This document shows positions 1-35,513 of a stretch of 35,513 nt of DNA, one piece after another. A program made the translations under genes and the position numbers. The stretch spans positions 1 to 35,513 of the forward strand of contig JAUMVX010000024.1 of NCBI GenBank assembly GCA_030529945.1, read 5' to 3'. Every line of letters begins with the position of its first letter. The stretch's first letter is position 1. The DNA is from Bacteroidia bacterium (GTDB lineage Bacteria; Bacteroidota; Bacteroidia; Bacteroidales; UBA932). Under the pieces are notes generated by a model. The model was not told the DNA's origin. It worked only from the letters and a program-made list of their open reading frames with translations, and ran no database searches.

Positions 1-51
1 TTTCAGCCCTTTTTGCTGACCATTTCTCAAACAATTAACTTAACACCCTAA

Positions 52-174
52 TAAATTTAGACCAAAAAGACGAGCAAAAGCACCAAGTTATTTTTTTAGA
101 ATCACCAAAACTGAAGAAGCCGCCATTTTTCTTTCGACAGGGGGCTTCCGGGGAATCATTAACAAAACATATTT
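52..174 (+). promoter_or_regulatory. upp promoter and leader (weak call)
   Basis: TAAATTTA at 52-59 differs from the Bacteroidota -7 box TAnnTTTG only in its last base; no clear -33 box is seen. Transcription from it would give a leader of about 110 bases. The leader holds a 16-base stretch at 72-87 that recurs exactly in the recA leader, and a possible weak stem (GAAGCC 116-121 with GGCTTC 143-148). Confidence 0.35.
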
Positions 175-804
175 ATGAGCACAGTCCACATTATCGACCA
201 CCCGATGATTCAGCACAAGCTGACCATTATGCGTGACAAGAACACAGGTTCCAAGGATTTCAGACAGCTTCTGACGGAGATTTCACTTTTTATGGGCTAT
301 GAGGTGACGCGGGACCTCCCGCTCGCCACGAAGGAGATTGAGACCCCCATCTGCAAGATGACGGCTCCGAAGGTTTCCGGCCGCAAACTCGCCATAGTCC
401 CTATCCTGCGCGCGGGAATGGGTATGCTCGACGGTATGCTCACCCTCGTCCCTGTCGCCAAGGTCGGACATATCGGACTTTACAGAAATGAGGAGACACA
501 CGAGCCTGTGGAGTACTACTGCAAGCTCCCGGAGGACATCCAGCAGAGACTCGTCATCGTTACCGACCCGATGCTCGCCACAGGCGGAAGCTCCTGCGAC
601 GCGCTCACTATGCTGAAGAAGCACGGCTGCACCAATATACGCCTGATGTGCCTCGTGGCCGCTCCCGAAGGCCTGAAGAAAGTTCAGGAAACCCATCCTG
701 ACGTGGACATCTACGTCGCCGCAGTGGACGAGCGCCTGAACGAGCACGCCTACATCGTCCCGGGCCTTGGTGACGCGGGCGACCGCATCTTCGGCACGAA
801 GTAG
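175..804 (+). CDS. upp: Uracil phosphoribosyltransferase
   Basis: Cytoplasmic pyrimidine-salvage enzyme that joins uracil and PRPP to make UMP. The 209-residue product has the normal family length. The PRPP-binding loop [11 protein letters not shown] is at residues 129-139, and the C-terminal uracil-binding segment [17 protein letters not shown] is intact. The upstream segment with PILRAGMGM (about residues 76-84) is also typical. The ATG at 175 is the first in frame and gives the expected N-terminus; no Shine-Dalgarno is visible, as usual in this phylum. It is monocistronic: the downstream potD gene is convergent, with a large palindrome between them. Confidence 0.96.
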
Positions 805-843
805 GTATCCTCTCGGCAAGAGCCTCCGCTGTCAGAGTGCATA

Positions 844-887
844 ATTGGACGAAACCCGGGACTGGCCAGTCCCGGGTTTCGTCCAAT
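844..887. terminator. Perfect 44-bp palindrome, candidate bidirectional terminator
   Basis: Two 22-base arms match without a mismatch around the centre ACTGGCCAGT (861-870). It lies in the 99 bases between the convergent stops of upp and potD, the position of a bidirectional terminator. It lacks the T-run of a classical intrinsic terminator on either strand, so termination could rely on the hairpin alone, or the element may be a protein site. Confidence 0.6.
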
Positions 888-903
888 CTTGCTGCGCGGA
901 GCT

Positions 904-2193
904 TTACTTCCTGCGCCTTCCGTGCTTCTTGCGCCGGCTGAGCAGTGCGAGAAGGGCTATGGCCACGAGGGCGGCAGCTATGCAGATGTACGTGAACATC
1001 CCGGCGTTGTCACCCTTTACGCGCGACCACATCTTCAGCAGAGCCTCGGTGCGGTCGCCGTTGTCGTGCATCATCCCACAACGCTTCATAATCGAGGCGT
1101 CAGGGTACTGGATAGGATTTATGCATACGGCTCCCGCCTCTTCTCCGAAGAAATATCTTGCATCGATCGGGGCGTATTTCACCGTGTCGATGATGCTGTC
1201 CAGAATCTCCTCGCCGCCGACCGCGCTGACGTATCCGATGGCGTCCATATTCCGGACGGCGTTCTCGGGCTTGCAGAGGAAATTGATGAAGTACCGGGCC
1301 GCCTTGATGTTTTTCGCATATTTCGGGATGACCCAGCCGTCGAACCATACGATGCTGCCCTCGTGAGGAACTTCATAGTCGAGGGACACGCCTACTTTCT
1401 CGGCTTCTTCGATGGCCCACTGCGCATCGCCGCTCCAGTCGAGGTTTATCCAGGCTTTTTCCTTGGTCATCTGCTCCTTTCCGAAATCAGCTTCCCAGCC
1501 CAGGACATTGTCCTTGACTTCGTTGAGGAAATCCTCCACAAGGCGGATGTATTCGTCGGAAGCGTCGAAGGTTATATCCTCCAGACTCAGTTCCCCGGCA
1601 TCTATCTGATCTTTATGGAGAGCTATGGTGAGAGCCGTATAGACATCCCGGAAAGCGTCCTTGATGAAAATCTTGTTCTTGAAGCGCGGATCCTTGAGGC
1701 AATTCCACGAAGAGACTTCCTCCCTGGTGACATACTTGGTGTTATAGAGGAGTCCGGTAGTCCCCCACATATACCCGACGGCATAGTCATTCGCGTTCTT
1801 CCCGGATCCTTCGATCTCGTCGAATTTCCCCCGGATATACGGGGCGATGCCGCCGATATAGTTCGGGGTGTCTCCGAAGTCGGTTTCGATTTCCAGCAGC
1901 AGGTTCTGCCTGAGCATCCGTTCTATAATATAATCGGAAGGACAGACCACGTCGAAATCCTCGTGCCCGAGTTCGATTTTGGAGAGCATAATCTCGTTCA
2001 CGTCGAAGAGCTGGTAGATAATCTCCACATCTTCGCCTGTCTGAGCCTTGTACCAACCCTTGAATTCCTCCAGAAGGCTTTCGTCTATGTAGTCGGCCCA
2101 GTTGTAGATTTTCAGCGTGTGTTCACGATCCGCAGCGCTGCAGAGGATGACTCCGGAGAGCAGCGCCAGCACGGTTGCAACAAGTTTTTTCAT
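904..2193 (-). CDS. potD: Spermidine/putrescine ABC transporter substrate-binding protein, C-terminally anchored
   Basis: Polyamine-binding component of the PotABCD importer, 429 residues. An N-terminal signal peptide (MKKLVATVLALLSGVILCSA) is followed by the typical PotD opening LKIYNWADYIDESLLEEF and the conserved DFDVVCPSDYIIERM region. There is no good lipobox, since the residue before Cys18 is Leu. Instead the last ~31 residues form a hydrophobic helix (about 399-419) followed by SRRKKHGRRRK. That is a stop-transfer anchor, so the protein is probably held on the periplasmic face of the inner membrane. The family is usually about 350 residues and soluble or lipid-anchored. It is the last gene of the operon, and its ATG overlaps the potC stop (ATGA). 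Confidence 0.93.
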   Translation of the reverse strand: MKKLVATVLALLSGVILCSAADREHTLKIYNWADYIDESLLEEFKGWYKAQTGEDVEIIYQLFDVNEIMLSKIELGHEDFDVVCPSDYIIERMLRQNLLLEIETDFGDTPNYIGGIAPYIRGKFDEIEGSGKNANDYAVGYMWGTTGLLYNTKYVTREEVSSWNCLKDPRFKNKIFIKDAFRDVYTALTIALHKDQIDAGELSLEDITFDASDEYIRLVEDFLNEVKDNVLGWEADFGKEQMTKEKAWINLDWSGDAQWAIEEAEKVGVSLDYEVPHEGSIVWFDGWVIPKYAKNIKAARYFINFLCKPENAVRNMDAIGYVSAVGGEEILDSIIDTVKYAPIDARYFFGEEAGAVCINPIQYPDASIMKRCGMMHDNGDRTEALLKMWSRVKGDNAGMFTYICIAAALVAIALLALLSRRKKHGRRRK

Positions 2194-2993
2194 TTCTTAT
2201 CTGATTTTATGGAATTTGCTTTGGCAGACCTTAAGTTTATGATTATCAGAAGAATCAACACCGTCAGGAAGATAATGGTCATAATGGGCCGTATCTCCGG
2301 TGTGAGTCCACCCTTGCGCGCATCCGCGTAGATATAGGTGGACAGGGTTTCGAGTCCTCCGTTACCTTTCGTGAAGAGGGTCACTGCGAAATCGTCGATC
2401 GAGAGGGTGAACGCCAGTATCAGTCCGGACACTATGCCCGGCTTGATCTGGGGGATGATGACCTTGCGCATAGCCTGACGGGGGGAAGCGCCCAGGTCCA
2501 GAGCCGCCTCATAGAGATTCTCAGGCATCTGCCGGAGCTTCGGCAGGATGCTCAGGATGACATAAGGGGTACAGAACGAGACGTGGGCAAGGATGACGGT
2601 GGTATAGCCCTGCCTTACTCCCAAGGCCACGAAGAGGACGAAGAGCGATATGCCCGTGATGATGTCCGGATTCAGCATAGGGATGTCGTTCAGGAAGGTC
2701 ATAGCCTTCTTCTTCCTGCCGTGAAGGTTATGTATGCCTATGGCGGAGAAGGTCCCGAGCAGGGTGGAAAGCACGGCGGAGATGACGCCTATCATCAGAG
2801 TATTCTCGATGGCCCGAATCAGCGAATTGTTCAGTCCGCCTCCGAACACGTTCCTGTAAAGGTTAAATGAGAAACCCGTCCAGTTCCCGAGGACCTTGGC
2901 CTCGGTGAAAGAGTAGATCGCGATGATCAGAATCGGGGCGTAGAGAATCACGAGCAGAATCCAGACATACGCCTGTGCAAAGAACTTCTTCAT
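2190..2993 (-). CDS. potC: Spermidine/putrescine ABC transporter permease PotC
   Basis: Second inner-membrane permease of the polyamine importer, with about six membrane helices. The binding-protein-dependent transport EAA motif is visible as LYEAALDLGASPRQAMRKVIIPQI in the second half, where it contacts PotA. The start is taken at the ATG whose A is base 2993 (MKKFFAQAYVWILL). It overlaps the potB stop by one base (TGATG) and begins just before the first membrane helix. An upstream in-frame extension to 3104 would be an arginine-rich segment lying inside potB and is not credible. Length is 267 residues, normal for PotC. It is translationally coupled to potB before it and potD after it. Confidence 0.94.
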   Translation of the reverse strand: MKKFFAQAYVWILLVILYAPILIIAIYSFTEAKVLGNWTGFSFNLYRNVFGGGLNNSLIRAIENTLMIGVISAVLSTLLGTFSAIGIHNLHGRKKKAMTFLNDIPMLNPDIITGISLFVLFVALGVRQGYTTVILAHVSFCTPYVILSILPKLRQMPENLYEAALDLGASPRQAMRKVIIPQIKPGIVSGLILAFTLSIDDFAVTLFTKGNGGLETLSTYIYADARKGGLTPEIRPIMTIIFLTVLILLIIINLRSAKANSIKSDKK

Positions 2994-3775: not shown

Positions 3776-3778
3776 CTC

Positions 3779-5203: not shown

Positions 5204-5256
5204 TTCCCTAAAGCATAAAAATAGTTATTTGCAGATGCACATATTTTTCCGAGCTG

Positions 5257-5285
5257 CAAATATCGGAATAATATGCAATAAACAA
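5257..5285 (-). promoter_or_regulatory. Putative potABCD promoter
   Basis: On the minus strand GATATTTG (5264-5257) differs from TAnnTTTG in its first base, and TTG (5285-5283) lies 18 bases upstream as a -33 element. Transcription would begin near 5252, leaving a leader of about 50 bases before potA. Confidence 0.45.
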
Positions 5286-5317
5286 GGGCTTGCGGAAGTT
5301 TTTTTCGATGAGGGAGG

Positions 5318-15985: not shown

Positions 15986-18900
15986 CTATCTCTGCACCCT
16001 CACCGCGCCCGACGCGGTGCAGGCGTAGGTCTGAGGATCGTACATATCCTCACAAACTGCCGATGGAAGGGCATATACGCCTTCATAGGCCGCCTGCAGG
16101 CGGAGCTTCATACGCTTGCGTGTCCCCACAGGCAGGTCGAAATACCAGATGACCCTATCGTCGCGTATATCCTGATATGAGTATTCTCCGCTCCGGTCGG
16201 AAGAGACGCCGTAAAGCCTCTCGTTGAAGATCTCCCAGCCGGAAGGAACCTTGACCGTAAGGGCCAGATTGCTGCGGTTTGCCGCCGAGGCGGAAAGATT
16301 CGTCACGAGATACTCGGCATAGAAGTCAGTCCCCTGTCTGAGATTAGCCGGGTCCACGACTTCCCCGTTCACATCCGTATAGCGCACGCTGAGGCTGATG
16401 TTCGAGCTGCGGGAGCTGACGCTTTCCCCCGCTGCCGGATAGCCGTGGAGCAGGAATACGGCATAGACCGCATCGGAAGCCTCGTTCTTTATGGACAGAG
16501 TGCCGGAGGACGGGTCGACGTCCCTGCATACGGAAGATTCCGTGCTGCGCACGCTCCCGCCGTTCACTGAGACATCTATGGCGGAAGATCCCACCTTCTC
16601 CGCGAGGCGGTTCATCGCGAGCGCGGCGAAAGCGGCGGCCTGCGTGCCGTACAGTCCGTCCGACATCTGCTCAGCGACCTCCCGGGCGAGCGGCAGGGCG
16701 GCGGTCAGATTGTCCGTAAGGACCTCTGTCTCAAGAAGCATCGCCTTGTCCCTCAAGCTGTTGCCGAAAGTATATATGTATGAGGCCTGCTCGGAGGCAT
16801 CAGCCGCGCAGGAGGATATCAGCTGGGCAGCGATGTTCTTTTTGCCGCACACGGCGTAGGCGGCGGCGAGTCTGCGGCAAGCCTGCGGAGTCATCGCGGG
16901 AGCGGATTTCAGACGGTTCATCGCACCCTCGTCGGCAGCTCCGGCAAGAGCCAGAACATAGAGACGGTACGCCTGCTGCAGGTCGTACTGCGCATACTGC
17001 TCGCCGTGCCTGTAGTTCGACACGCATTTCTTCTGGAAACGCTTCCACGAGGAGAGCACTCCCTTGTTCACGCTGAAGCCCCTTTCCGCAGCTGCCGCGA
17101 GGAACTGACCCGTCATAGAGGTCGCCCATTCGTTCGCATAGGACATTCCCGGCCAGTAAGCTATGCCTCCGTCGGCGAGCTGCCTGGAGTAGAGTTCCTG
17201 CAGGATGAGCGGAATCTGCGCATCGGCGCGCTCCGCATTGTCTTCGCTCAGATAAGGTCTGGAGTAAATCAGAGCCATACCTCTGGCGGCGAGCTGCTCG
17301 CTGCAGCTGTATTGGTAGCCGGAGGCGAAGTAGCACAGAGAGTTGAAGTCCACCGAAGGGAAGTTGCTGAGCGTGATCTGCGCACGGTTCTCCCCGTCCG
17401 GAACGAACGGAGTGAATGTCACAGTCTTGCTCTCGCCCGGCGCGAGCAGATACGCCAGCGTGCGGGTGGTCGCCGGAAGCGGGTGCACCACTGCGACACT
17501 TATGGTCTCTGAAGTCCTGTACGAGCCGCACTCGGCGCTGACGGTAATCTTCGCCGTGCCTGTGCCGCCGGTGGCGGCCAATGCGAACCGGGCCATCGCG
17601 TCCCCAGGACGGGCGAAGTCGAGAGCCTCCGAAGCGGAGCCCTGAATCTCCACCGGACCCTCCGCCTTCACGCTCACGCGCACATTCTTCATATCGTCCT
17701 CCATCGCGAAGACGTTCACCGGCAGAGTCACCTTGTCTCCGGCCGCGATGGTGCGCGGCAGAGTAGGAAGCAGCATCAGAGGCGAGCGCACAGGCACGGT
17801 CTTCTCGGCATTGCCGTAGCTGCCGTCCTGCCCCGCCACAAGCATCACGCGTACTGAGCCGACATACATCGGGAGCTTGATCTTGTGGACTTTCTCCCCC
17901 CGGTTCAGTTCGAACGGCCCGTAGAAGCGCACTACAGGGTTGAAGCGGTTATCCTTGCGGGCCCCGGAAACGATTTCGTCATCGCCTCCGATGCCGGCGA
18001 GCGGCGAGAACTTGCCGCTGAACGCTCCGAACACATCGTCATAGAGATCCCAGGTCTTCACCCCGAGCGCCTCCCGGGCATACATCGCACTGTAAGGGTC
18101 CGGAGTCCTGAAAGCGGTAAGGTCGAGCAGTCCCTCGTCCACCACCGCGAGAGTATATGTCATCGGACGGCCCTTCTTCTCGCGGACCTTCACGCTGAAC
18201 TCCTCCTGCGGACGTATCACATCCGGCAGGGAAAGTACAGGTTCGAGCCTGGCGTCCGGATTCTGCACCAGCACAGGCTGGACTCCGTACATACGGACAG
18301 GAAGGTCGTTGCCGGCATCCTTGCGGCTCTGGAGCATTGTGACGTGCACATAGAAGTTCGGCGCCATATCCTCCGTAACCTTAATCACGTGCCGGGTGTC
18401 CCGCTCCTCGTCGGTCTTCACCCAGCTGCGGGAAATCACGCCGCGTCCGTTCTCCAGCGAGACGAGAACCCGGCCTGCCTTCGCCGCCGGGATATAGACC
18501 GTCACCTCGTCGCCGACCTTGCACTCCCTGCGGTCGAGACTGAAGGAGAGCATAGTGAGAGAGGACGGGTCATTCTTTTCCGAACGTCCGCGCCAGCTCG
18601 GCCAGTCCACATAGAAGATTCCGCCTGAGGCGTGTCCGCTGTCCAGGTCCTTGACATACAGAAGGAAACGTCCCCACTCGGGATACTCCAGACGGAAAGG
18701 TACAGTGGCCGGAGAAGTCGAAGAAGTCAGAGTCCCCCGACTTACCGGGACGGAGCTCTTGCCGTTCACATAAGAGCTGAGAGATTCTCTGCGGCTCTCC
18801 CACCACCAGCTCCAGTCCATCTTGTAGATACGGTATTCGAGCCTGTCGCCCGATACGGGTCTGCCCCGGCTGTCGAGTACCACTATCGGGAAATTCAGGT

Positions 18901-21499
18901 CAGTGTCCGTCTCCTGCCACTCGGAAGGCAGTTTCACGCCCACATAGGAACGGAACGGAGAGAAGAGCTCCGTGCACGTGGCTATGCTCGCGTCTCCGCC
19001 CGGCTCCATCACGCGGGTGACGATATTCGCGTTCATCATTCCCGGAGCTGAAGGCACCTCTGAGATCTTCACGCTCACGCGGGCGCGGCCCGAGTTGTCG
19101 AGAGTCGTGGTATAGACGTCCCAATCCGCCGTATCATAGGACGAAATCGGATTCTGGAAATTATAGCCTTCATAGCCGCTGAATGCAGCTTTCCTGCGGC
19201 TGAGGGTCATCGTGGAAACGACCTTCAGCCCCGAGGCCGCCGGTCCCGTGAGCCAGTTCGAACTCACATCGAAACGGGTCACGCCGCCCGCCTGTATGAT
19301 TTCGTCCGAAAGCTCCACATTCACTTTCAGCCTGTTCGCCTTTACCGTCTCCACAGGAAGGGCTTTGTGGAAGCTGGCGCCTCCGACCTTGACATAGGCG
19401 TTCCAGGTTCCGGTAGGGTCGCTTTCACGGGTAGGGATGTCGAACACGTAAAGCCCGTTCACCCCGGAAGTGTTCACCTGCTTGGAGTAGAACTGCCCTT
19501 GAGGTGTGTAAAGTTCCATAGTGACGGGATGATGGCGCGGCACGGCCTTCCCCCTGTCCTCTATCATAGCCGACACGTGCAGCGTGTCGCCCGGCCTCCA
19601 GACTCCCCTCTCCCCGTAGATATAGGCCTTCATTCCGGAAGACAGTTCCTGTCCTCCCACATCGAAGCGGCTGAGGGACTTTTCCTCGCCGTCCACGGTG
19701 CGCAGATACCCGATCCTATCGTCCTTGCGGACCGTGAACACGAAAGGCTTGACGGAAGTCCGCAGGTGCGCGAAGCCCTTGCCGTCAGTCTTGGCGCTGG
19801 CGATCTCCTGCAGCTGGTAGCTGTAGGCCGTCACCTCCGCGAAAGAGAGAGGCTCGGTAGTGGCTAACTCGTTAGCGGTCACCCAGTAGTCCCCTGCGCC
19901 GGCACTCTTTACGATGATGCCGACATCGGAAGCGAGCAGAGAGCATTTCGGGAAGCGCTCGGATATCATATAATATGACGGAGTGGTCGGGTCGTCCCGG
20001 TCATCCCAATCATAAAGCTCCCAATCGTAATAATTGTCGTAATAGTATGCGTTGGGACGGTCCCAGACCTTCTCGTCTTCCTCAGTGAGGGAGCCCTGGG
20101 AAGGGCTCACCATAGCGGACAGACCGGAATCCGTGGCAATGGCTCCGCCGTAGAGGGAATACTCCCGGCGGAAAGAGAGGGTGATGCGGTAGAGAGCCCC
20201 CGGTTCCTTTTTGAAGAACGGACTGAGGTCGATGGAGAAATCCTGCCATTTATGCAGGTCCTTGCCCGGGTCGGAGTCCAGACGGACCGTACCCTTATAG
20301 ACCATACGGCCGCTGCGGCGGATGTCATTGCCGTCGCTGAGACGGGAATTGTCCTGAAGGTACATCAGCATATTGTTCGCGTACACCTTGATGATGGTCA
20401 CGTCCACGGCTGAGAGGTTCACGGCACGCAGCGGAAGGACCACTTCGGCCGCGTCCGGCAGGATGGAACCGGTGAATGCGAGCTTCACTGCGGGAGCGAT
20501 GTCCTCCCGGCGGAAAGTCTTGGTGTATTCCTGTCCGAGAGCCTTTCCGTCAGCGTTTTTCAGCAGGGACGACACGGTGAGCCGCACATCTGAGGCGGAG
20601 CCGCGCTCGAAGAAGAGTTTTACCCTGTTGCCCTTGACATCCATATAGCTCCTGCCTTCCGCATCGGTGTAGATGAGCCCCTTGTAGTCGCGCGAGGCAT
20701 CCAGAAGCCCGGAAAAGCGTATGTCAGCATAGCAGTCTCCGTCCTCCACGAGTTCGGCCGAGATGACGCCGAACTCCGATGTCGGAGGAAGCGCGACCTG
20801 TTGCGAATATCCGTCCTTATAGCCGAGGGATGAGGCGTCCACGCTGAGCTTGAGCTGCGAAGGGGAGTCGGGAATCGCGATTCCGCTGACCGTGAAGCCC
20901 AGCGAGATGCCGCCGCCAGGGAGAATCTCCACACTCGGAGTGGCCCCGTGACACTTTACCGAAATGATGTCGGAGGCATCTGCGGCTTCCACCGGCTCGC
21001 TGAACTGTATCTTTCCCTCCAGCTGATAGAATTCAGGCTCGGAAGGATCGATGAAGAGGCTCAGGCCGCTGACGGAGAATTGCCTGCGTGCGACGCGGAA
21101 TGAGAAGTCGAACTTCTTCAGAGACTTCTCGCTCACTCCGGCCACATCGCCGAGCCGGAAGGTGGCCTTATAGGTGGCTCCCTGTTTCAGCGCTCCGCTT
21201 TCGGGGATGAACTCAATTCGGGAGGCGGATACCCAGTGTGCGCTGCCCTTTAGCGAAGGGCTGAACGAAAACAGCGCGTCCGGGTCCACGGAACTGTCCA
21301 CGTCGGAAGCGAAATCGATGCGTATGGACGAATCCGGAGATATCGTGCCGCCCGTGTAGGCGTACACGTAGTCGATGAATGCTGCGGCAGGAGCCTGTAG
21401 TCCCTTTCCGTTACCGCAGCCGCCGAGAAGAGGCAGCAGCGCCAGCGCCAGCGAGGGCAGAAGCGCAAGTTTCGAAGCAAGTTTAAGATTCATACTCAT
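15986..21499 (-). CDS. Bacterial alpha-2-macroglobulin lipoprotein
   Basis: Very large periplasmic protease trap, 1837 residues (E. coli YfhM is about 1650). Signal peptide with lipobox LGGC (Cys28). N-terminal macroglobulin-type beta domains include an Ig-like SSIRIDFASDVDSSVDPDALF. A bait-like linker is followed by the A2M core around DLTAFRTPDPYSAMYAREALGV. The thioester motif is intact: CSEQ at Cys1399-Gln1402 within the alpha/alpha-toroid domain. The C-terminus has another beta domain. An acidic/tyrosine-rich insert (YYYDNYYDWELYDWDD, around residue 485) is unusual. It traps proteases through the thioester and works with the adjacent PbpC. Start: two closely spaced ATGs (21499 and 21493); either suits. 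Confidence 0.94.
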   Translation of the reverse strand: MSMNLKLASKLALLPSLALALLPLLGGCGNGKGLQAPAAAFIDYVYAYTGGTISPDSSIRIDFASDVDSSVDPDALFSFSPSLKGSAHWVSASRIEFIPESGALKQGATYKATFRLGDVAGVSEKSLKKFDFSFRVARRQFSVSGLSLFIDPSEPEFYQLEGKIQFSEPVEAADASDIISVKCHGATPSVEILPGGGISLGFTVSGIAIPDSPSQLKLSVDASSLGYKDGYSQQVALPPTSEFGVISAELVEDGDCYADIRFSGLLDASRDYKGLIYTDAEGRSYMDVKGNRVKLFFERGSASDVRLTVSSLLKNADGKALGQEYTKTFRREDIAPAVKLAFTGSILPDAAEVVLPLRAVNLSAVDVTIIKVYANNMLMYLQDNSRLSDGNDIRRSGRMVYKGTVRLDSDPGKDLHKWQDFSIDLSPFFKKEPGALYRITLSFRREYSLYGGAIATDSGLSAMVSPSQGSLTEEDEKVWDRPNAYYYDNYYDWELYDWDDRDDPTTPSYYMISERFPKCSLLASDVGIIVKSAGAGDYWVTANELATTEPLSFAEVTAYSYQLQEIASAKTDGKGFAHLRTSVKPFVFTVRKDDRIGYLRTVDGEEKSLSRFDVGGQELSSGMKAYIYGERGVWRPGDTLHVSAMIEDRGKAVPRHHPVTMELYTPQGQFYSKQVNTSGVNGLYVFDIPTRESDPTGTWNAYVKVGGASFHKALPVETVKANRLKVNVELSDEIIQAGGVTRFDVSSNWLTGPAASGLKVVSTMTLSRRKAAFSGYEGYNFQNPISSYDTADWDVYTTTLDNSGRARVSVKISEVPSAPGMMNANIVTRVMEPGGDASIATCTELFSPFRSYVGVKLPSEWQETDTDLNFPIVVLDSRGRPVSGDRLEYRIYKMDWSWWWESRRESLSSYVNGKSSVPVSRGTLTSSTSPATVPFRLEYPEWGRFLLYVKDLDSGHASGGIFYVDWPSWRGRSEKNDPSSLTMLSFSLDRRECKVGDEVTVYIPAAKAGRVLVSLENGRGVISRSWVKTDEERDTRHVIKVTEDMAPNFYVHVTMLQSRKDAGNDLPVRMYGVQPVLVQNPDARLEPVLSLPDVIRPQEEFSVKVREKKGRPMTYTLAVVDEGLLDLTAFRTPDPYSAMYAREALGVKTWDLYDDVFGAFSGKFSPLAGIGGDDEIVSGARKDNRFNPVVRFYGPFELNRGEKVHKIKLPMYVGSVRVMLVAGQDGSYGNAEKTVPVRSPLMLLPTLPRTIAAGDKVTLPVNVFAMEDDMKNVRVSVKAEGPVEIQGSASEALDFARPGDAMARFALAATGGTGTAKITVSAECGSYRTSETISVAVVHPLPATTRTLAYLLAPGESKTVTFTPFVPDGENRAQITLSNFPSVDFNSLCYFASGYQYSCSEQLAARGMALIYSRPYLSEDNAERADAQIPLILQELYSRQLADGGIAYWPGMSYANEWATSMTGQFLAAAAERGFSVNKGVLSSWKRFQKKCVSNYRHGEQYAQYDLQQAYRLYVLALAGAADEGAMNRLKSAPAMTPQACRRLAAAYAVCGKKNIAAQLISSCAADASEQASYIYTFGNSLRDKAMLLETEVLTDNLTAALPLAREVAEQMSDGLYGTQAAAFAALAMNRLAEKVGSSAIDVSVNGGSVRSTESSVCRDVDPSSGTLSIKNEASDAVYAVFLLHGYPAAGESVSSRSSNISLSVRYTDVNGEVVDPANLRQGTDFYAEYLVTNLSASAANRSNLALTVKVPSGWEIFNERLYGVSSDRSGEYSYQDIRDDRVIWYFDLPVGTRKRMKLRLQAAYEGVYALPSAVCEDMYDPQTYACTASGAVRVQR

Positions 21500-24626: not shown

Positions 24627-25658
24627 ATGGCTAAAGAAGTAGAAACAAATGCCGCCGCGGGAGCGAATGAGGCCAGACTTAAGGCTCTGCAGGCGACACT
24701 CGACAAGATCGAGAAAGATTATGGTAAAGGCACGATTATGAAGCTGGGGGATCAGCCACAATGGGATGTCCAGGTCATTCCGAGCGGCTCCGTAGCCCTC
24801 GACCACGCGCTGGGAATCGGAGGCTACCCGAGAGGGCGCATCATCGAAATATACGGACCGGAATCCAGCGGTAAGACCACCCTGGCCATCCACGCCATAG
24901 CCGAAGCCCAGAAACTCGGAGGCATCGCCGCCATCATAGACGCGGAGCACGCCTTCGACCGCACTTATGCCAAGGCTCTGGGCGTAAATCTGGACACCCT
25001 CCTCATCTCCCAGCCGGATAACGGCGAGCAGGCTCTCGAGATCGCGGATAACCTCATCCGTTCCGGAGCCATCGACATCATAGTCATCGACTCCGTGGCC
25101 GCACTCACTCCAAAGGCTGAAATCGAGGGCGAGATGGGCGACAACAAGGTCGGCCTGCAGGCCCGCCTTATGAGCCAGGCCCTGCGCAAGCTTACGGCCA
25201 ACATCAGCAAGACGAACACCTGCTGCATCTTCATAAACCAGCTCCGCGAGAAGATAGGCGTGATGTTCGGGAATCCGGAGACCACCACAGGCGGCAACGC
25301 CCTGAAGTTCTACGCTTCCGTGCGCATCGACGTGCGCCGCACCACCCAGCTCAAGGACGGGGACGAGGCCACGGGGAACCGCACCAGGGTGAAGGTGGTG
25401 AAGAACAAGATGGCCCCTCCTTTCAAGAAAGCCGAGTTCGACATCGTTTACGGCGAGGGCATCTCGCACAGCGCGGAGATCTGCGACCTGGGAGTCGAGC
25501 TTGACATCATCCACAAGAGCGGAAGCTGGTTCAGCTATAACGGCGAGAAGCTCGCCCAGGGCCGCGAGGCCGTGAAGGCACTGCTTCGTGACAATACGGA
25601 ACTCTGCGAGGAGATCGAGGGCAAGGTCCGCGAGGCTCTCGCGAAAATCAGCGACTGA
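24627..25658 (+). CDS. recA: Recombinase RecA
   Basis: DNA strand-exchange ATPase, 343 residues, normal length. Walker A GPESSGKT (77-84), the IIDAEHAFD segment, Walker B region [24 protein letters not shown], loop L2 region [30 protein letters not shown], and [15 protein letters not shown]. The C-terminus is acidic and short. Start ATG at 24627 after a 100-base leader. The stop overlaps the trpS start by one base (TGATG). No LexA-type box is recognised; instead a large inverted repeat covers the promoter. Confidence 0.98.
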
Positions 25659-26806
25659 TGGGGAAAATCATTCTTACGGGCGACCGTCCTACGGGCCGCC
25701 TCCATATCGGACATTACGTAGGGTCGCTCCGCCGCAGAGTGGAGCTGCAGAACAGCGGCGAGTTCGAGAAAATCTACATAATGATCGCCGACGCGCAGGC
25801 TCTCACGGATAATGCCGACAACCCTGAGAAAGTACGCCAGAACATCATCGAAGTGGCTCTCGACTATATGTCGGCGGGGCTTGACCCCGCGAAATCCACG
25901 CTCTTCATCCAGAGCCGGATCAGTGAGCTGACCGAGCTTACTTTCTTCTATATGAATCTGGTCACGGTGCAGAGGCTTCAGAGGAATCCTACCGTGAAGC
26001 AGGAAATCCAGATGCGCGGATTCTCCGAGAGCGGCGAGGAGAACAAGGCCGGAACCCCCGTGGGGTTCTTCTGCTACCCCATAAGCCAGGCGGCGGACAT
26101 CACGGCCTTCAAAGCCACTACGGTACCGGCCGGCGAGGACCAGGAGCCTATGGTCGAGCAGACCCGCGAGATCGTGCGCAAATTCAACTCCGTGTACGGA
26201 CCCGCTCTCGTGGAGCCGGAGATACTGCTGCCGGAGAACGCGGCCTGCCTGCGTCTGCCGGGCACGGACGGCAAGGCCAAGATGAGCAAGTCTCTGGGGA
26301 ACTGCATCTACCTTTCCGACTCTGCCGAAGAGGTGAGGGCGAAAGTGAAGGGGATGTTCACAGACCCGGGACATCTTCAGGTCAGCGACCCCGGCAAGGT
26401 GGAGGGGAATACCGTCTTCACCTATCTGGACGCGTTCTGCGCCCCGGAGCACTTCGACAAGTTCGGAGGCTGCTTCACCGGAAGGAAGGCTTCTTTCGAT
26501 TTCCACAGTCTGGACGAGGTGAAGGCGCAGTACAGGGCCGGAGGTCTCGGGGACGTGATGATAAAGAATTTCCTCGCCGAGGTGCTGAATGACACTCTGG
26601 AGCCTATGAGAGTGCGCCGCAAGGAGCTTGAGGCGGACCTCCCTTATGTTTACGAGGTGCTGCGCAAGGGAAGCGAAACGGCACGCGCGGAAGCGGCGCG
26701 AACACTCGCGGACGTAAAGCGCGCGATGAAGATAAATTACTTCGACCCCGGCGTACTGGAGCAGCTCATAGAGGAGCAGAGCAGAAAATACGGAAACAGC
26801 CTCTGA
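25658..26806 (+). CDS. trpS: Tryptophanyl-tRNA synthetase
   Basis: Class I synthetase charging tRNA-Trp, 382 residues; many bacterial TrpS are about 330, so it is a longer form. HIGH motif at 16-19 ([12 protein letters not shown]) and KMSKS at 208-212 ([11 protein letters not shown]). [14 protein letters not shown] matches the family's conserved tRNA/tryptophan site. It starts on the last base of the recA stop and is therefore translationally coupled to recA, an unusual partner. The gap to rlmN is 40 bases with no recognisable promoter or terminator. Confidence 0.96.
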
Positions 26807-26846
26807 AAACCGGGCGGAGAGACTGACTCGGTAATAATACGATAAA

Positions 26847-27878
26847 ATGATGAAAGAGAAACTGCTGGGGATGACTCCGGAGGAGCTGAAGGCTGCGGCG
26901 ATAGGCTGCGGCCTTCAGCCGTACGCCGGAGGGCAGATAGCCAAATGGCTGTACGTGAAGAAAGCGCACAGTTTCGACGAGATGACCGACATCTCCAAGG
27001 CCGGGCGCGAGGCGCTCGCCGCACGGTATGAACTGGGGCTTACCCTGCCGGCGGCGAGCGCACAGTCTGCGGACGGAACCCGCAAATACCTCTTTCCCGC
27101 CGGAGAGTACGCGGTGGAGGCGGTGGTGATTCCGGACGAGGAGCGCCGCACCCTCTGCGTCAGCTCCCAGGCCGGATGCCGGATGGGCTGCCGCTTCTGT
27201 ATGACGGGCCGCCAGGGCTTCCACGGTCATCTGTCCGCGGCGGACATACTCTCGCAGTTCATCGCCATAGACGAGTCCGCACAGCTGACGAATGCGGTTT
27301 TTATGGGGATGGGGGAACCACTGGACAATTACTCCGAAGTCTCGCGGGCCATCACCGTACTCACCTCCGGCTGGGGCTTCGGCTGGAGTCCGAAGAGGAT
27401 CACCGTCTCCACCATAGGAGTCATCCCGACTCTGAAGCGCTTTCTGGAAGAGAGCCGCTGCCATCTGGCGGTGAGCCTGCACGACCCCTTCCCCGAGGAA
27501 AGGGCCTCCATTATGCCCGTCCAGAAGGCCTATCCTATAGAGGATGTCGTAAACTTGATCCGTCAGTACGACTTCAGCGGACAGAGAAGGGTCAGTTTCG
27601 AGTACACTATGTTCGCCGGACTTAACGACAGCAAACGCCACGAGGATGCCCTGATCCGCCTGTTGAGAGGGCTGGAGTGCCGGGTGAATCTCATACGTTT
27701 CCACAAGATTCCGGATTTCCCCCACGAGAGCACGGCACTGCCGCTTATGGAGAATTTCCGGGACAGGCTCTCCGCTCACGGCATCACCTGCACCATCCGC
27801 GCCTCCAGAGGAGAAGACATTCTCGCCGCCTGCGGAATGCTGGCCGGACGCCATAAGGCACAGAATCCGCAAAGCTGA
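26847..27878 (+). CDS. rlmN: Dual-specificity 23S rRNA/tRNA adenine-C2 methyltransferase RlmN
   Basis: Radical-SAM enzyme that methylates A2503 of 23S rRNA and A37 of some tRNAs. The iron-sulfur cluster ligands CxxxCxxC are Cys111, Cys115 and Cys118 (AGCRMGCRFCMTG). GMGEPLDNY follows. The C-terminal catalytic cysteine is Cys329 (DILAACGMLAG). Normal length of 343 residues. The sequence begins ATGATG, and either could be used. It lies just after trpS and may be on the recA-trpS transcript. Confidence 0.95.
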   Translation: MMKEKLLGMTPEELKAAAIGCGLQPYAGGQIAKWLYVKKAHSFDEMTDISKAGREALAARYELGLTLPAASAQSADGTRKYLFPAGEYAVEAVVIPDEERRTLCVSSQAGCRMGCRFCMTGRQGFHGHLSAADILSQFIAIDESAQLTNAVFMGMGEPLDNYSEVSRAITVLTSGWGFGWSPKRITVSTIGVIPTLKRFLEESRCHLAVSLHDPFPEERASIMPVQKAYPIEDVVNLIRQYDFSGQRRVSFEYTMFAGLNDSKRHEDALIRLLRGLECRVNLIRFHKIPDFPHESTALPLMENFRDRLSAHGITCTIRASRGEDILAACGMLAGRHKAQNPQS

Positions 27879-30290: not shown

Positions 30291-30296
30291 TCGTCG

Positions 30297-32115: not shown

Positions 32116-32135
32116 GCGCCCGGCCTCCGTTTTTT
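32107..32135 (+). terminator. Intrinsic terminator of the patatin-recX-rfbD-rnhA cluster
   Basis: GCCGGG (32107-32112) pairs with CCCGGC (32119-32124), and a run of six T follows (32130-32135). The six-base loop contains the rnhA stop codon. Confidence 0.75.
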
Positions 32136-32196
32136 GTGATGAATGCGCCGAGTATCGTTCCGAGCGATCCCGTCTTCCCGGAGATTCTCGAATCGA

Positions 32197-33525
32197 TTAT
32201 ATCATATTCTTCAGTGACAAACCTATGTAATCTATAGCCCAGCCCTTGTGATGCTCGGCAATTCTGACCGATTTGGCGGCGAGATCTTTTCGGTTGATTT
32301 TCGATTCGTTGCGCTTGCATTCTCCGATCACTATCTTGCGGTCGGCCTCGTTGACGGCTATAAGATCGATTTCGTTCTTCTCCCCAGGTTCTCCTTTCGA
32401 GCCTTTCTCCCAATAATTCGTTACGATGTTGTATTCTCCTGTCTCCATATAGGACTGCCTGAACCACTTCTCCAGAACAAGGCCCGAATAGACTTCATAA
32501 TCCGATTCAATCCTTTTCTTGACGTACTCCATATTGCCAATCTCGACTGCGCTCCTGTATTTGTAGATGAAGCGGAACCAGAAATTAAGGAAATTATCTG
32601 AAATATAATACCTTACATTCCTTGACTGCTCACCGCTGAGATATGGTCGCACTCTGGCCACGACATTGTAATCGTTCTCCAGTTTATCCAGATAGCCGCC
32701 CGTCTCGAATCCCACATAGCTGGTCATATCGCCTCGATAAGTATTGCCGCCCGCGAGAGCTGCAAGGACTGAGAAATAGTTTCCGTATTCCTTGCCGAAC
32801 TCATCGGAGAGAAGTTCCTTACCCTCGTCGATGAAATATGAACCTATATCAATAGACGTGTCGATAATCGCATCCCTGGTGAATGCCTTCTGAGTCATCA
32901 GTAGCTCAACATATTTCGCCACGCCTCCTGTCACCATATACAAAGTCAGAAGGTCGTCCGGCGTATAATCCGGGTTATGGTCGCAGAGTATTTCCTTCAG
33001 AACGGAAGTGCCGAATGGCTTGATTGTGAACCTTGCAGTGGCCCGTCCATACAGAGGCTCGTCCTTGTCGTCGAAGATCTTTTTCATCCTCGAATAGATG
33101 GATCCGCAGATGACAAGGTTAATCCGGCTGTCTTCCTTATTGGAGTCCCATACGTTCTGGATGTCCGAGAAGATTGCCTCGCCGGCAATCTTCAAGTTCT
33201 GGAATTCGTCCAGCACAAGAGTGAAATTCTTTCTTTTTGATATACTCATTATCGCCTCGAAAAGTCGTCTGAACGAGGTGAAATCCCCAATGTCCTCATT
33301 AAGAACATCCCTTACGATTTCGACGAGTTCCTGACAGAGCAGATGCTCGCTCTTTTTCCCTACGAAGAAATAGAGGAACGGGATGGAGGTGAATGAGTGC
33401 TTTATGAGCGTGGTTTTCCCAATCCTGCGTCGTCCGGTCATCACAATCATCTGAGCATTTTCGGAGGAAAGCGCCTCATATCTTTTCAATGCGGCCATTT
33501 CGGCCTCCCTGTCATAGAATTTCAT
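32197..33525 (-). CDS. AAA ATPase (ATPase_2 / DUF234 family) with nuclease-like C-terminus
   Basis: 442 residues. N-terminal P-loop: GRRRIGKTTL (Walker A), LVLDEFQN (Walker B), then CGSIYSRMKKIF. A middle winged-helix region (YRGDMTSYVGFETGGYLDKLENDYNVV) is followed by a DUF234 segment with YISDNFLNFWFRFIYK and a PD-(D/E)XK-like end, NEIDLIAVNEADRKIVIGECKR. The family is common in archaea and Bacteroidota and is often strain-variable; its biological role is not established. The start at 33525 (MKFYDREAEM) is preferred over the frame opening at 33633, which would cross an operator-like dyad. Base composition is visibly more AT-rich than rnhA and upstream, suggesting acquisition. Confidence 0.86.
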   Translation of the reverse strand: MKFYDREAEMAALKRYEALSSENAQMIVMTGRRRIGKTTLIKHSFTSIPFLYFFVGKKSEHLLCQELVEIVRDVLNEDIGDFTSFRRLFEAIMSISKRKNFTLVLDEFQNLKIAGEAIFSDIQNVWDSNKEDSRINLVICGSIYSRMKKIFDDKDEPLYGRATARFTIKPFGTSVLKEILCDHNPDYTPDDLLTLYMVTGGVAKYVELLMTQKAFTRDAIIDTSIDIGSYFIDEGKELLSDEFGKEYGNYFSVLAALAGGNTYRGDMTSYVGFETGGYLDKLENDYNVVARVRPYLSGEQSRNVRYYISDNFLNFWFRFIYKYRSAVEIGNMEYVKKRIESDYEVYSGLVLEKWFRQSYMETGEYNIVTNYWEKGSKGEPGEKNEIDLIAVNEADRKIVIGECKRNESKINRKDLAAKSVRIAEHHKGWAIDYIGLSLKNMI

Positions 33526-33542
33526 TTTTCGCCTTATTTTTT

Positions 33543-33573
33543 TGTAACAGCCGTTACAGTAAACACCGTTACA
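33543..33573. promoter_or_regulatory. Operator-like dyad TGTAAC-N4-GTTACA plus a third half-site
   Basis: TGTAAC (33543-33548) and GTTACA (33553-33558) form a perfect dyad with a four-base spacer. The octamer CCGTTACA recurs at 33551-33558 and 33566-33573. It lies 18 bases before the ATPase_2/DUF234 start, in the presumed leader, so it may be a repressor site. No regulator is encoded nearby. Confidence 0.55.
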
Positions 33574-33579
33574 AAGATG
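33572..33579 (-). promoter_or_regulatory. Possible -7 box for the ATPase_2/DUF234 gene
   Basis: CATCTTTG on the minus strand (33579-33572) differs from TAnnTTTG in the first base. Start near 33567 would put the dyad inside a leader of about 42 bases. From 33580 to 33757 I see no gene or promoter; a 65-codon minus-strand frame there has no recognisable family. Confidence 0.35.
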
Positions 33580-33757
33580 AAGATTTTTTATAAGAGAAGC
33601 AATTTTTATTGATGCCCCGTAGCTGTTGTTCAAGATGTTCTACACACGGAACAAGGCTATAGTCGGTGTTTATTATTCGGAACTGCCCGGGATGACCGCC
33701 TTCCTCGGTTCTCTCTGACGGATGTCCTTTTTCTCGACAGGCTATAAAGGAGTTCAT

Positions 33758-33826
33758 ATCGGCCAACTTGCCGAATGAAAATCAGCCAACTTGCCAAATG
33801 AAAATCGGCTAACTTGCCAAATGAAA
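33758..33826. repeat. Three adjacent 23-bp tandem repeats
   Basis: Units 33758-33780, 33781-33803 and 33804-33826 follow each other without spacers. The shared core reads GCCAACTTGCCAAATGAAA, with one or two changes per unit. They end 12 bases before the -33 TTG of the downstream ATPase gene. Placement and period (about two helical turns) suggest cooperative protein binding. Confidence 0.85.
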
Positions 33827-33838
33827 AAAGATAATGGC

Positions 33839-33868
33839 TTGATTATTTGAGAAAAAGCCGTATCTTTG
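33839..33868 (+). promoter_or_regulatory. Promoter of the DUF4143 ATPase gene
   Basis: Exact -7 box TATCTTTG (33861-33868) with TTG at 33839-33841, 19 bases upstream. Five bases after the box is the A of the ATG (33873), so the transcript is predicted to be leaderless. Confidence 0.75.
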
Positions 33869-33872
33869 CTGT

Positions 33873-35159
33873 ATGAGCAATTATAAGATAAGAGTCGCCG
33901 ATACTATCCTTAAAGATAACCTGGAAGCTGCCGGTCTGGTCCTGATTGAAGGAACCAAATGGTGCGGAAAGACCACCACGGCAGAACAGCAGGCGGGGAG
34001 TGTAGTGTATATGAACGATCCGGCAAATTCCGGAACATACATTACGTTGGCGCAGACTTCACCGGGGCTTCTGCTGAGGGGTGAAACTCCACGTTTGGTT
34101 GACGAGTGGCAGGATGCCCCCGAACTCTGGGATGCAGCCAGATTTGAGGTGGATCATCGCGACGAGAAGACAGCCCAATTCATATTCACCGGTTCGACCG
34201 TCATTCCGGAAGAAAAACGGGAAAAGATAAAACATACCGGGACCGGACGTGCGGCGTGGATAAAGATGCGCCCGATGAGCCTTTGGGAGTCCGGAGAATC
34301 TAATGGCGACTTGAGTCTCAGTAAGTTGTTTGCCGGGGAAACGGAAACCGCTTATCCTTCGAATAATCTGCAGATAGATGACCTGGCCTGGCTCATATGC
34401 CGCGGCGGATGGCCGGCCGCATTGTCTATGTCCAGAAAAGGAGCTCTCCGCCAATCGTTCAATTATATCGATGCTATTGCCGGTACGGATATTTCAGCCG
34501 TGGATGATGTGGAACGGGACAGGGATTTTACACTGCGTCTGCTCAGAAGCTATGCCCGCTTTCAAGGCGCTCAAGCTTCGGTAACTTCCATCTACGAAGA
34601 CCTCAAAACCAATGCGGCCGGTTCGATGACGACGGATACCATTACATCATACATAACGGCACTCAAGAAGCTTTATGTCATAGAGGACGCTCCGGCCTGG
34701 AATCCTAATCTCCGCTCAAAGACAGCCATAAGAACATCGGATACTCGTTATTTCGTGGACCCTTCGATAGGCGCAGCTGCATTAGGTATCGGCCCCGGAG
34801 ACCTCCTGTCAGACTTGAATACAATGGGGTTTCTTTTTGAAGCCCTGTGTGTCAGGGACTTGCGTGTATATGTTGAGGCGCTTGACGGAAATCTCCATCA
34901 TTATAGAGATAAAAATAATCTTGAGTGTGATGCTGTTCTGCACTTGAGGGATGGCAGATACGGTCTGGTGGAAATCAAGCTCGGGGGAGATAAGCTCATC
35001 GAAGAAGGAGCTTATACCTTGAAGTTGCTGACTTCGAAACTTGATATGGTAAGGATGAAGGCGCCTTCATTTCTGATGGTGCTGACAGGCACAGGCTCTT
35101 ATGCTCATAAACGTGAGGATGGCGTCTGGGTCGTGCCGATAGGATGTTTGAAGCCTTAG
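33873..35159 (+). CDS. DUF4143-type AAA ATPase
   Basis: 428 residues. The P-loop is GTKWCGKTTTA (Walker A, about 27-37), then the acid pair in RLVDEWQDAPELWD in place of a standard Walker B, and TAQFIFTGSTVI. The C-terminal DUF4143 region ends LECDAVLHLRDGRYGLVEIKLGG, whose Asp and EIK resemble a PD-(D/E)XK core. These ATPases are frequent, mobile and functionally uncharacterised; some call them archaeal-type ATPases or ATP-binding proteins of the accessory genome. Codon use is more AT-rich than the housekeeping genes. Divergent from the other ATPase across a repeat-rich region. The ATG at 33873 fits the N-terminus and the promoter. Confidence 0.88.
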   Translation: MSNYKIRVADTILKDNLEAAGLVLIEGTKWCGKTTTAEQQAGSVVYMNDPANSGTYITLAQTSPGLLLRGETPRLVDEWQDAPELWDAARFEVDHRDEKTAQFIFTGSTVIPEEKREKIKHTGTGRAAWIKMRPMSLWESGESNGDLSLSKLFAGETETAYPSNNLQIDDLAWLICRGGWPAALSMSRKGALRQSFNYIDAIAGTDISAVDDVERDRDFTLRLLRSYARFQGAQASVTSIYEDLKTNAAGSMTTDTITSYITALKKLYVIEDAPAWNPNLRSKTAIRTSDTRYFVDPSIGAAALGIGPGDLLSDLNTMGFLFEALCVRDLRVYVEALDGNLHHYRDKNNLECDAVLHLRDGRYGLVEIKLGGDKLIEEGAYTLKLLTSKLDMVRMKAPSFLMVLTGTGSYAHKREDGVWVVPIGCLKP

Positions 35160-35193
35160 TCTTTGCCGGAACCTACTATTCTCCTTAAAAAGA

Positions 35194-35224
35194 TTTGTAA
35201 TCCGCGACAAAAAGGATATATTTG
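35194..35224 (+). promoter_or_regulatory. Promoter upstream of a structured non-coding region
   Basis: Exact -7 box TATATTTG (35217-35224) with TTTG at 35194-35197, 19 bases upstream, among the best-formed promoters in the window. No open reading frame starts within reach; the transcript (from about 35229) would run into the hairpin region. Confidence 0.72.
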
Positions 35225-35264
35225 CAGAGGAAAGAACAGGCTATTAGAAAAATATTTATAAACA

Positions 35265-35400
35265 GGCGTTAATGTCCGTGCTTCCTTGAAACTTCGACAT
35301 CTTCAACAGTAGCACAACGGAATTAACGCCCACGTGTTCGAAATGAACTCGTGGGCTTATCCGTTGGAATGTGCTACAGGTTGTCGAAGACCTCAAGGAG
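35265..35400 (+). ncRNA. Candidate structured RNA: long rod hairpin with a competing stem
   Basis: Blocks pair in nested order: CTTCCTTGA (35281-35289) with TCAAGGAG (35393-35400, one bulge); CTTCGACA (35292-35299) with TGTCGAAG (35382-35389); GTAGCAC (35309-35315) with GTGCTAC (35371-35377); AACGG (35316-35320) with CCGTT (35361-35365); CCCACG (35329-35334) with CGTGGG (35350-35355); GTTC (35336-35339) with GAAC (35345-35348). Alternatively GGCGTTAAT (35265-35273) pairs with ATTAACGCC (35322-35330), which excludes part of the rod. The strand is assigned from the promoter at 35217. A T5 run at 35422-35426 may mark the end, giving about 197 bases. It could be a 6S-like RNA, a leader of a gene beyond the window, or an element end. 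Confidence 0.5.
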
Positions 35401-35513
35401 CAGACCAATGAGTAAGTCCACTTTTTGTATGCTCTCAAGAATATATTCTAACATTCAATCACGTGACTTTAACCAATTTTTGTACAATTAACTCTCCAGC
35501 TTGACGGTCTTGG

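Follow-up and report, generated by a model that had tools for sequence, protein, structure and literature searches.

Which force could empty an entire stretch of a bacterial genome of one four-letter word? The window, meaning the whole stretch of DNA analyzed here (35,513 bases), contains no CATG, compared with 140.1 occurrences expected under a maximal-order Markov model (z −16.1). The expectation is 133.7 from base composition and 134.8 from dinucleotides. CATG is its own reverse complement, so the count of zero applies to both strands. The earlier note on this DNA had claimed that CATG is missing where about 139 sites would be expected and had proposed a tetramer count against a Markov model; this count places the word far below expectation, as claimed. 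Rusinov et al. 2015 (PMC4687349) define a site as avoided when its ratio is under 0.78 and 15 or more sites are expected. The window falls within this definition with a ratio of 0.00, taking the expectation from the maximal-order Markov model, which need not equal that paper's own.

The removal of CATG is largely synonymous. When codons were shuffled synonymously with the proteins held fixed (200 rounds; 27 predicted proteins covering 33,348 nt, with four frames entered downstream of the true start), the mean was 136.2 CATG and the minimum 118, compared with zero observed. Codons ending in C or T that precede ATG end in T in all 124 cases, while only 227 of 1,389 do so ahead of other codons starting with A. 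Histidine is encoded by CAC in all 57 instances that precede G, and none of the 48 NCN codons preceding TG ends in A. The preferences for T before Met and for CAC before G-starting codons had been read from the sequence previously, as had the compliance of the AT-rich ATPase region (32197–35159), and all three hold, the last with zero CATG versus 11.6 expected. In a codon-guided, pairwise comparison of recA, trpS, rlmN, a recX-like, and an rfbD-like gene (about 4.5 kb of aligned coding DNA), this genome retains 0 of 25, 0 of 15, and 0 of 25 of the CATG sites present in three relatives. An artefact of reading or assembly, such as DNA that was cut at CATG before sequencing, is practically inconceivable and is refuted by codon choice, as codons switch from C to T ahead of ATG. 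Furthermore, all 27 reading frames are intact across 35.5 kb in which about 140 sites are expected. The features of the window are listed in Table 1.

Table 1 Position of the CATG-free stretch and of selected genes within it.
Feature	Position	Strand	Remark
Stretch without CATG	1..35513	.	0 versus 140.1 expected
Largest ORF of the window, 1,837 aa, without CATG	15986..21499	-	alpha-2-macroglobulin-like, by reading only
recA	24627..25658	+	named by reading; anchor for the comparable stretch in relatives
trpS and rlmN	25658..27878	+	named by reading
ATPase gene, AT-rich, without CATG	32197..33633	-	ATPase_2 + DUF234; PADLOC PDC-S27
ATPase gene, without CATG	33873..35159	+	DUF4143 + AAA_14; PADLOC PDC-S01

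The avoidance holds beyond the window, where the earlier note had suggested looking. In a sample of 20 other stretches of the genome (233,626 bases, 2,893 of them masked), 68 CATG are present versus 899 expected. The resulting ratio of 0.076 also lies below 0.78 (threshold from PMC4687349). The absence is not absolute genome-wide, given that 68 sites persist in the sampled bases. Of the 19 readable stretches, ten lie between 0 and 0.024, and the highest values are found in L019 (0.41), L021 (0.24), L024 (0.22), and L016 (0.22). L019 and L016 carry genes that read as recombinase-, transposase-, and toxin-antitoxin-like. In the window and 19 sampled stretches, a search for rRNA, on which constrained sites might have been checked, came up empty, and only five tRNAs were present. 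Recognition-site avoidance typically takes the form of a thinning-out of sites. The phenomenon is of a known kind and is here unusually complete. Combined-term literature searches found no paper on CATG avoidance.

The putative restriction-modification genes held responsible sit outside the window on contig C26 (loci L001/L013). They comprise a partial endonuclease of the ICEA family (PF05315, 6.9e-53), which matches profile positions 113 to 218 of 218 and hence the C-terminal part only, and a D12 methyltransferase (PF02086, 1.1e-49) with an open frame of 334 aa. The start of the D12 gene overlaps the end of the endonuclease gene by four bases. In an alignment of ICEA proteins (those of L110 and L120 left aside), the fragment keeps all near-invariant columns from DHKDGR onward, a motif that we take to be part of an HNH-type site. 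Searches of solved structures returned no relative of the endonuclease or of the D12 protein. Judging from family members and the avoided word, the two proteins would cut and methylate CATG. The search for NlaIII-type genes proposed in the earlier note yielded a candidate pair. The note's idea that the lineage “has, or long had” such a system is supported by these overlapping genes together with the lack of avoidance in the closest sampled relatives, which are free of ICEA; it is refined to “had,” as the assembly shows an interrupted endonuclease gene.

The arrangement resembles IceA1/HpyI of Helicobacter pylori, in which an ICEA-family endonuclease likewise adjoins an adenine methyltransferase that is specific for CATG. 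CATG is the target of M.HpyI in the iceA system (PMC10423294), and iceA1 resembles NlaIII (PMC13340068). The NlaIII system of Neisseria lactamica is cited as a homolog of iceA1 and its methylase (PMC13340068); the likeness to the present genes is drawn at the level of the family rather than from direct comparison with the NlaIII sequence. Rusinov et al. 2015 (PMC4687349) describe avoidance under orthodox Type II systems as affecting short palindromic sites, growing stronger with long exposure, and leaving traces after loss of the system. The present case is like those described there in its short palindrome and, on the preferred explanation, in long exposure and in traces that outlast a loss.

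CATG avoidance is lineage-specific and not a trait of the clade. recA was matched in 136 of 149 family and 188 of 200 genus genomes. In the recA tree, this genome clusters with G226, G261, and G335 (support 99/94), which are its closest sampled relatives, have CATG ratios of 0.84, 0.60, and 0.94, respectively, and lack ICEA. Counting this genome, ICEA is found above the cut-off in only one of the family and three of the genus genomes. The other carriers include G250 (0.05–0.11 in four readable stretches), G313 (0.00–0.02 across six stretches), and G344 (0.06, single stretch). G363 has both ICEA and D12 and a ratio of only 0.60; G247, where D12 is present and ICEA was not found, has 0.56. Three ICEA lineages that are separate on the tree avoid CATG almost completely, with G363 as a weaker fourth. 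On the tree, ratios below 0.3 occur in four of five ICEA-positive and five of 45 ICEA-negative genomes (Fisher p 0.0025, uncorrected for descent; the ICEA-negative G113 has a sub-cut-off match at 7.8e-4, G345 was treated as G250, and G346 as G313). Independent pairs, which are too few for significance, give about three in the same and none in the opposite direction for ICEA, and about four and none for D12.

Four genomes (G228, G299, G221, and G015) have ratios of 0.07 to 0.25, yet neither ICEA nor a gene like the D12 methyltransferase of this genome (P0001) was found in them. G228 also shows no D12 gene, and its lone N6_N4 match, under the cut-off, falls in what looks by reading like an RNA methyltransferase gene. 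These genomes speak for a different, undetected system, for example one acting in G228 and G299, as the cause of the avoidance, with the ICEA pair being coincidental. This is improbable in view of the three separate ICEA lineages and of the survey below, in which ICEA + D12 genomes from several phyla tend toward avoidance. The exceptions may be traces of lost systems, an alternative documented in PMC4687349.

The survey covered 54 ICEA loci, 50 of which were taken forward (all but L118, L144, L145, and the partial L146). After L129 and G376 (L126, no recA match) were dropped, 48 ICEA genomes were compared. Genomes with ICEA and a nearby D12 gene (n = 40) have a median CATG ratio of 0.12 and lie below 0.78 in 37 cases, the exceptions being G359 (0.88), G388 (0.91), and G390 (1.05). 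ICEA genomes without D12, a label set by hand that refers to the fetched locus and not to the whole genome, lie at 0.67 to 1.06 in seven of eight cases and at 0.02 in one. Relatives without ICEA above the cut-off (n = 43) have a median of 0.87, with 18 below 0.78. Genes in pieces were counted as present (D12 in L125 and L141, ICEA in L143), and two weak stretches were kept, namely that of G358 (33% match, probably not recA) and that of G369 (4.6 kb, 12.3 expected). Across the whole analysis, the stretches L009 and L150 are masked over their full length. An extra upstream gene for an N6_N4-type methyltransferase is found in 41 of the 54 related loci. In G281, which has a ratio of 0.07, an EVE-like plus nuclease-like protein occupies the position of ICEA. 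As a tentative and rather doubtful reading, there may be two kinds of ICEA systems, of which those bearing D12 purge CATG from their host and those with N6_N4 only do not. The outcome would then depend on how good the protection is, or on a different recognition site, and not on the endonuclease alone, and the EVE-like protein of G281 may be an alternative enforcer.

CATG is not the only rare word in the window. CTAG is absent as well (35.2 expected), but it is low in most relatives sampled, and a large control set in PMC4687349 shows it underrepresented in 55.4% of its site-genome pairs; its absence is therefore not specific. The behavior of CTAG could suggest that a mutational or structural bias, of the sort proposed for CTAG itself, depletes CATG with no part played by restriction. 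Such a bias is very improbable for CATG, given that 36 of the 43 ICEA-free relatives have ratios of 0.6 or more and that the avoided word varies among relatives (ACGT has a ratio of 0.09 in G058 and 0.04 in G139). It was rejected on the near-normal CATG of sister genomes and on codon choice. GATC occurs 81 times versus 169.0 expected, and this shortage has its own candidate cause in a DpnII-family system found in the same genome.

The endonuclease gene appears to be broken by an IS21-like mobile element, as judged from a contig end. Its frame breaks off at this end just before the DHKDGR motif; no full-length endonuclease gene was found in this genome, and the N-terminal half is absent from searches of the assembly at E ≤ 0.001. 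The last 47 bases of the contig recur, with a 95.7% match, as the end of a second one and are similar, weakly by E-value, to DNA flanking istB of IS21-family elements. When 60 bases of that second contig were compared with plasmids, 16 weak matches came up, of which three records were inspected (E-values of 6e-5, 0.1, and 1). In two of these records the match sits 8 and 12 bases beyond istB; in the third, IS21 genes are nearby with an IS3-family gene intervening. Searches for the element end found nothing in viral contigs or, with a 97-base query, in plasmids, and this genome showed no transposase belonging to the element itself. The assembly is split into 93 contigs, with the gene at the edge of one of them, which speaks for an alternative in which the population still has a working endonuclease and CATG is selected against today, the contig end being a strain variant or an assembly artefact. 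The near-total absence of CATG over many stretches, which implies very recent selection, would fit this scenario. It is possible but unlikely, as the match between the two contig ends, their resemblance to DNA by istB, and the missing N-terminal half stand against it. It differs from the preferred explanation in the final step alone, so the probabilities of the two overlap.

The preferred explanation, long exposure to an NlaIII/IceA-type restriction-modification system whose endonuclease has since been lost recently, is very probably correct. Counting against it are the four avoiders in which no such genes were found, the intermediate ratios of G363 and G247, the three ICEA + D12 genomes that show no avoidance, the ICEA genome at 0.02 without D12 in its locus, and the 18 ICEA-free relatives under 0.78. 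We infer that self-restriction was the selective force and that events took the following order. An ancestor would have gained a Type II system of the ICEA/NlaIII kind, whose endonuclease would cut at CATG and whose D12 N6-adenine methyltransferase would mark that site. Incomplete protection would have turned every CATG into a liability. Changes that remove the word, mostly silent ones such as C to T before ATG, would have been favored until 0 to 2% of the expected sites were left in many stretches. An IS21-like element would then have split the endonuclease gene just ahead of DHKDGR. The methyltransferase gene remains, and the return of CATG would have barely begun in much of the genome.

An apparently damaged endonuclease gene next to a retained methyltransferase gene is a further likeness to IceA1/HpyI. 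In H. pylori, most iceA1 genes are reported to be mutated, and every genome studied has M.HpyI (PMC13340068, PMC10423294). However, CATG is the densest motif compared in H. pylori, with 9,036 per Mb (PMC10423294), whereas it is almost gone here. Extrapolated from the samples, thousands of CATG sites were lost in one lineage, and its nearest sampled relatives kept most of theirs. This lineage-specific loss, combined with a likely culprit gene that looks freshly broken, offers a natural clock, as CATG should now return at a neutral rate. Species that avoid different words allow the speed and the substitution routes of obeying a restriction taboo to be asked about. The finding also raises the question of what has spared CATG in H. 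pylori, which has a related system.

CATG is absent from the window (0 in 35,513 bases), as the earlier note had read by eye, against 140.1, 134.8 and 133.7 copies expected from trinucleotides, dinucleotides and base composition, respectively. CTAG is also missing (0 versus 35.2 expected), GATC stands at about half its expectation (81 versus 169.0); the remaining 13 palindromic tetramers span 0.68–1.26 in the count that the note had called for. When synonymous codons were shuffled over 200 rounds with the 27 predicted window proteins kept fixed, CATG appeared 136.2 times on average and at least 118 times. Avoidance works via silent changes, and protein content is not the route. Both codon habits named in the note hold when counted: ahead of ATG, 124/124 pyrimidine-ending codons have T in third position (227/1,389 ahead of other A-starting codons), and His before G is CAC in 57/57 codons. 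None of the 48 NCN codons preceding TG ends in A. Among four counted one-change neighbours of CATG, TATG (1.53), CACG (1.36) and CATA (1.32) are enriched and CGTG (0.89) is not.

The depletion extends beyond the window into the host assembly (2.28 Mb, 93 contigs, 95.7% complete), which is probably of metagenomic origin. In 20 further stretches (233,626 bases, 2,893 masked), 68 CATG stand against 898.9 expected (0.076), alongside 17 CTAG (268.2 expected) and 433 GATC (1,066.4 expected, 0.41). Residual CATG is patchy, with ratios of 0–0.024 in 10 of 19 readable stretches and 38 of the 68 copies on the four richest (L019, L016, L021 and L024). By reading, genes resembling those of recombinases, transposases and toxin-antitoxin systems lie on L019 and L016. 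An intergenic repeat, GTCATGCCCGACCTG followed by its partner CGGGCATC, carries CATG in this otherwise CATG-avoiding genome; 14 of the 68 copies sit in the context of such a repeat.

The note had proposed that the lineage has, or long had, an NlaIII-type system that punishes CATG, and a fitting gene pair was indeed found in the host genome. The one D12-type (PF02086) N6-adenine methyltransferase gene found (334 aa, contig C26) is overlapped at its start by four bases by a frame of the ICEA endonuclease family (PF05315, 6.9e-53). The reported target of M.HpyI, the iceA-system methyltransferase, is CATG (PMC10423294, in excerpt), and iceA1 is reported to be similar to NlaIII (PMC13340068, in excerpt), which suggests by analogy that the host proteins are specific for CATG. 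Elsewhere in the genome, a DpnII-family endonuclease adjacent to a CcrM-like N6_N4 methyltransferase is the natural candidate behind the GATC deficit, and a further N6_N4 methyltransferase on contig C31 is type III by reading. Two divergent ATPase genes in the window match candidate defence models of PADLOC (PDC-S27 and PDC-S01, respectively).

The ICEA match begins at profile position 113, and the earlier part is absent from the frame. Contig C26 breaks off 15 codons before the DHKDGR motif is reached, within DNA that does not code for ICEA. From this motif onward, in a region that we take to be an HNH-type site, every near-invariant residue in an alignment of ICEA proteins is present. The final 47 bases of C26 match the end of contig C93 (95.7%), where they continue into an ATPase-like frame that is large and unrelated. 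When 60 bases of that C93 end were used as a query, 16 plasmid records matched weakly, and three of them were opened: in two, which carry IS21-family elements, the matching stretch begins 8 and 12 bases beyond istB, and in the third, IS21 genes are nearby with an IS3-family gene in between. The E-values are weak (6e-5, 0.1 and 1), so the position of the match, more than its score, supports the label “IS21-like”. Searches for ICEA in the host genome returned nothing beyond the C-terminal fragment on C26. Because the gene is broken in the assembly and only this fragment was found, the sequenced strain is probably devoid of a working CATG endonuclease, barring a misleading assembly.

ICEA over the cut-off occurs in 1/149 sampled genomes of the family and 3/200 of the genus, the host included in both; another family member, G113, matches below the cut-off, and its CATG ratio is normal (0.90). 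In a 48-genome tree built from recA DNA, the host clusters with G226, G261 and G335 (support 99/94), whose ratios around recA are 0.84, 0.60 and 0.94. Ratios below 0.3 require six changes on this tree, five of them on well-supported branches. Over some 4.5 kb of coding sequence aligned with these three relatives, the host retains 0/25, 0/15 and 0/25 of their CATG sites, respectively; a within-genus control, G217, retains 8/25 of those of G226 and 7/25 of those of G335. Nine other words compared against the same relatives are retained in the host at 0 to 80%, among them AGCT (11/17, 12/15, 13/20) and GTAC (0/10, 3/9, 3/13), so zero retention in one comparison is not peculiar to CATG. The single-step outcomes, non-independent counts pooled from all three sisters, were C1T 21, C1G 16, A2C 6, C1A 4, G4C 3, T3A 1 and A2G 1. 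Other ICEA carriers with low CATG are G250 (0.05–0.11), G313 (0.00–0.02) and G344 (0.06). Relatives also avoid other words: ACGT in G058 (0.09, L075) and G139 (0.04, L076), CGCG in G107 (0.40, L080) and GGCC in G039 (0.07, L089).

A scan of public genomes yielded 54 ICEA loci. By hand count, with several loci cut by contig ends, an N6_N4-type methyltransferase gene lies beside ICEA in 41, a D12 gene in 44 and both in 33. CATG was read in 48 ICEA genomes, around recA except in G358. With D12 in the locus (n = 40), the median ratio is 0.12, with 37 genomes below 0.78, 27 below 0.3 and 18 below 0.1; G359 (0.88), G388 (0.91) and G390 (1.05, D12 gene in pieces) show no avoidance. Without D12 (n = 8), ratios are 0.02, 0.67, 0.69, 0.75, 0.76, 0.80, 0.88 and 1.06 (p 0.002, Mann-Whitney). 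Eighteen alignment columns distinguish the no-D12 ICEA group, which took in L126 and L128 and not L120. Among 43 family and genus genomes without ICEA over the cut-off, the median is 0.87, with 18 below 0.78, four below 0.3 and two below 0.1. The three groups are of differing phyla, and their comparison is uncorrected for descent. On a 50-genome recA tree, 4/5 ICEA-positive and 5/45 ICEA-negative genomes fall below 0.3 (Fisher p 0.0025); independent pairs number about three in the same and none in the opposite direction, too few for significance.

Four genomes have low CATG and no ICEA or gene like that of the host D12 protein (P0001) in our searches: G228 (0.07 and 0.23 in two stretches; L217), G299 (0.09 and 0.17 in two stretches; L162), G221 (0.25; L226) and G015 (0.23; L081). 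G221 has a D12 gene without a match to P0001 at E <= 0.001. For G299 and G221, which are sisters on the recA tree (95/92), low CATG is consistent with an ancestral system that has since been lost, and traces of lost systems are documented for other words (PMC4687349, in excerpt); an undetected system may instead be at work. G363, with both ICEA and D12, is reduced only to 0.60, and G247, with D12 and no ICEA found, to 0.56. G281 (0.07), in which no ICEA was found, encodes an EVE-like/nuclease-like protein between the end of an N6_N4 gene and a D12 gene. This protein (~380 aa; EVE and C-terminal RE_Alw26IDE matches, both sub-threshold) lies in or beside ICEA operons at 10/54 loci, once as a fragment.

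Features and stretches in the host and in ICEA-related genomes
Feature	Location	Strand	Remark
ATPase gene	window 32197-33633	-	PADLOC candidate defence model
ATPase gene	window 33873-35159	+	PADLOC candidate defence model
DpnII-family endonuclease and CcrM-like N6_N4 methyltransferase, adjacent	L002:1357-2975		contig C16, host genome
Low-CATG stretches, examples	L022; L018; L010		0/75.9; 1/82.9; 1/50.9 expected
Richest residual stretches	L019; L016; L021; L024		15/36.6; 10/46.2; 8/33.4; 5/22.8 expected
Intergenic GTCATGCCCGACCTG/CGGGCATC repeat	L006:6660-6800; L006:10640-10760; also L008, L014, L018, L021		
EVE-like/nuclease-like protein	L228:347-1498		G281, in place of ICEA
EVE-like/nuclease-like protein	L096, L100, L102, L105, L107, L109, L111, L119, L129; L095		fragment in L095
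ICEA without D12 in locus	L120, L122, L132, L133, L135, L137, L140		CATG 0.67-1.06

On the accepted view, Type II endonucleases act separately from their methyltransferases, and an unmethylated CATG is therefore cuttable. In PMC4687349 (in excerpt), site avoidance is reported only for such “orthodox” Type II systems. Each silent mutation removing a CATG would lower the risk of self-cutting, and on the host's own branch nearly all CATG would have been removed from much of the genome. Interruption of the endonuclease would then have left CATG free to return. The window contains no CATG although 2,025 of its words are a single change away from it, and little neutral divergence would therefore have followed the loss of the endonuclease, by rough estimate at most about one percent if about a third of one-change mutations are tolerated.

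Site avoidance by orthodox Type II systems and its persistence after system loss are already known; a limited literature search turned up no account of CATG loss for this bacterial group. What stands out is the completeness of the loss, the apparent reliance on a D12 partner and the contrast with iceA-bearing H. pylori: there, no motif in the comparison is denser than CATG (9,036 per Mb; PMC10423294, in excerpt), whereas in the present host it is almost gone.
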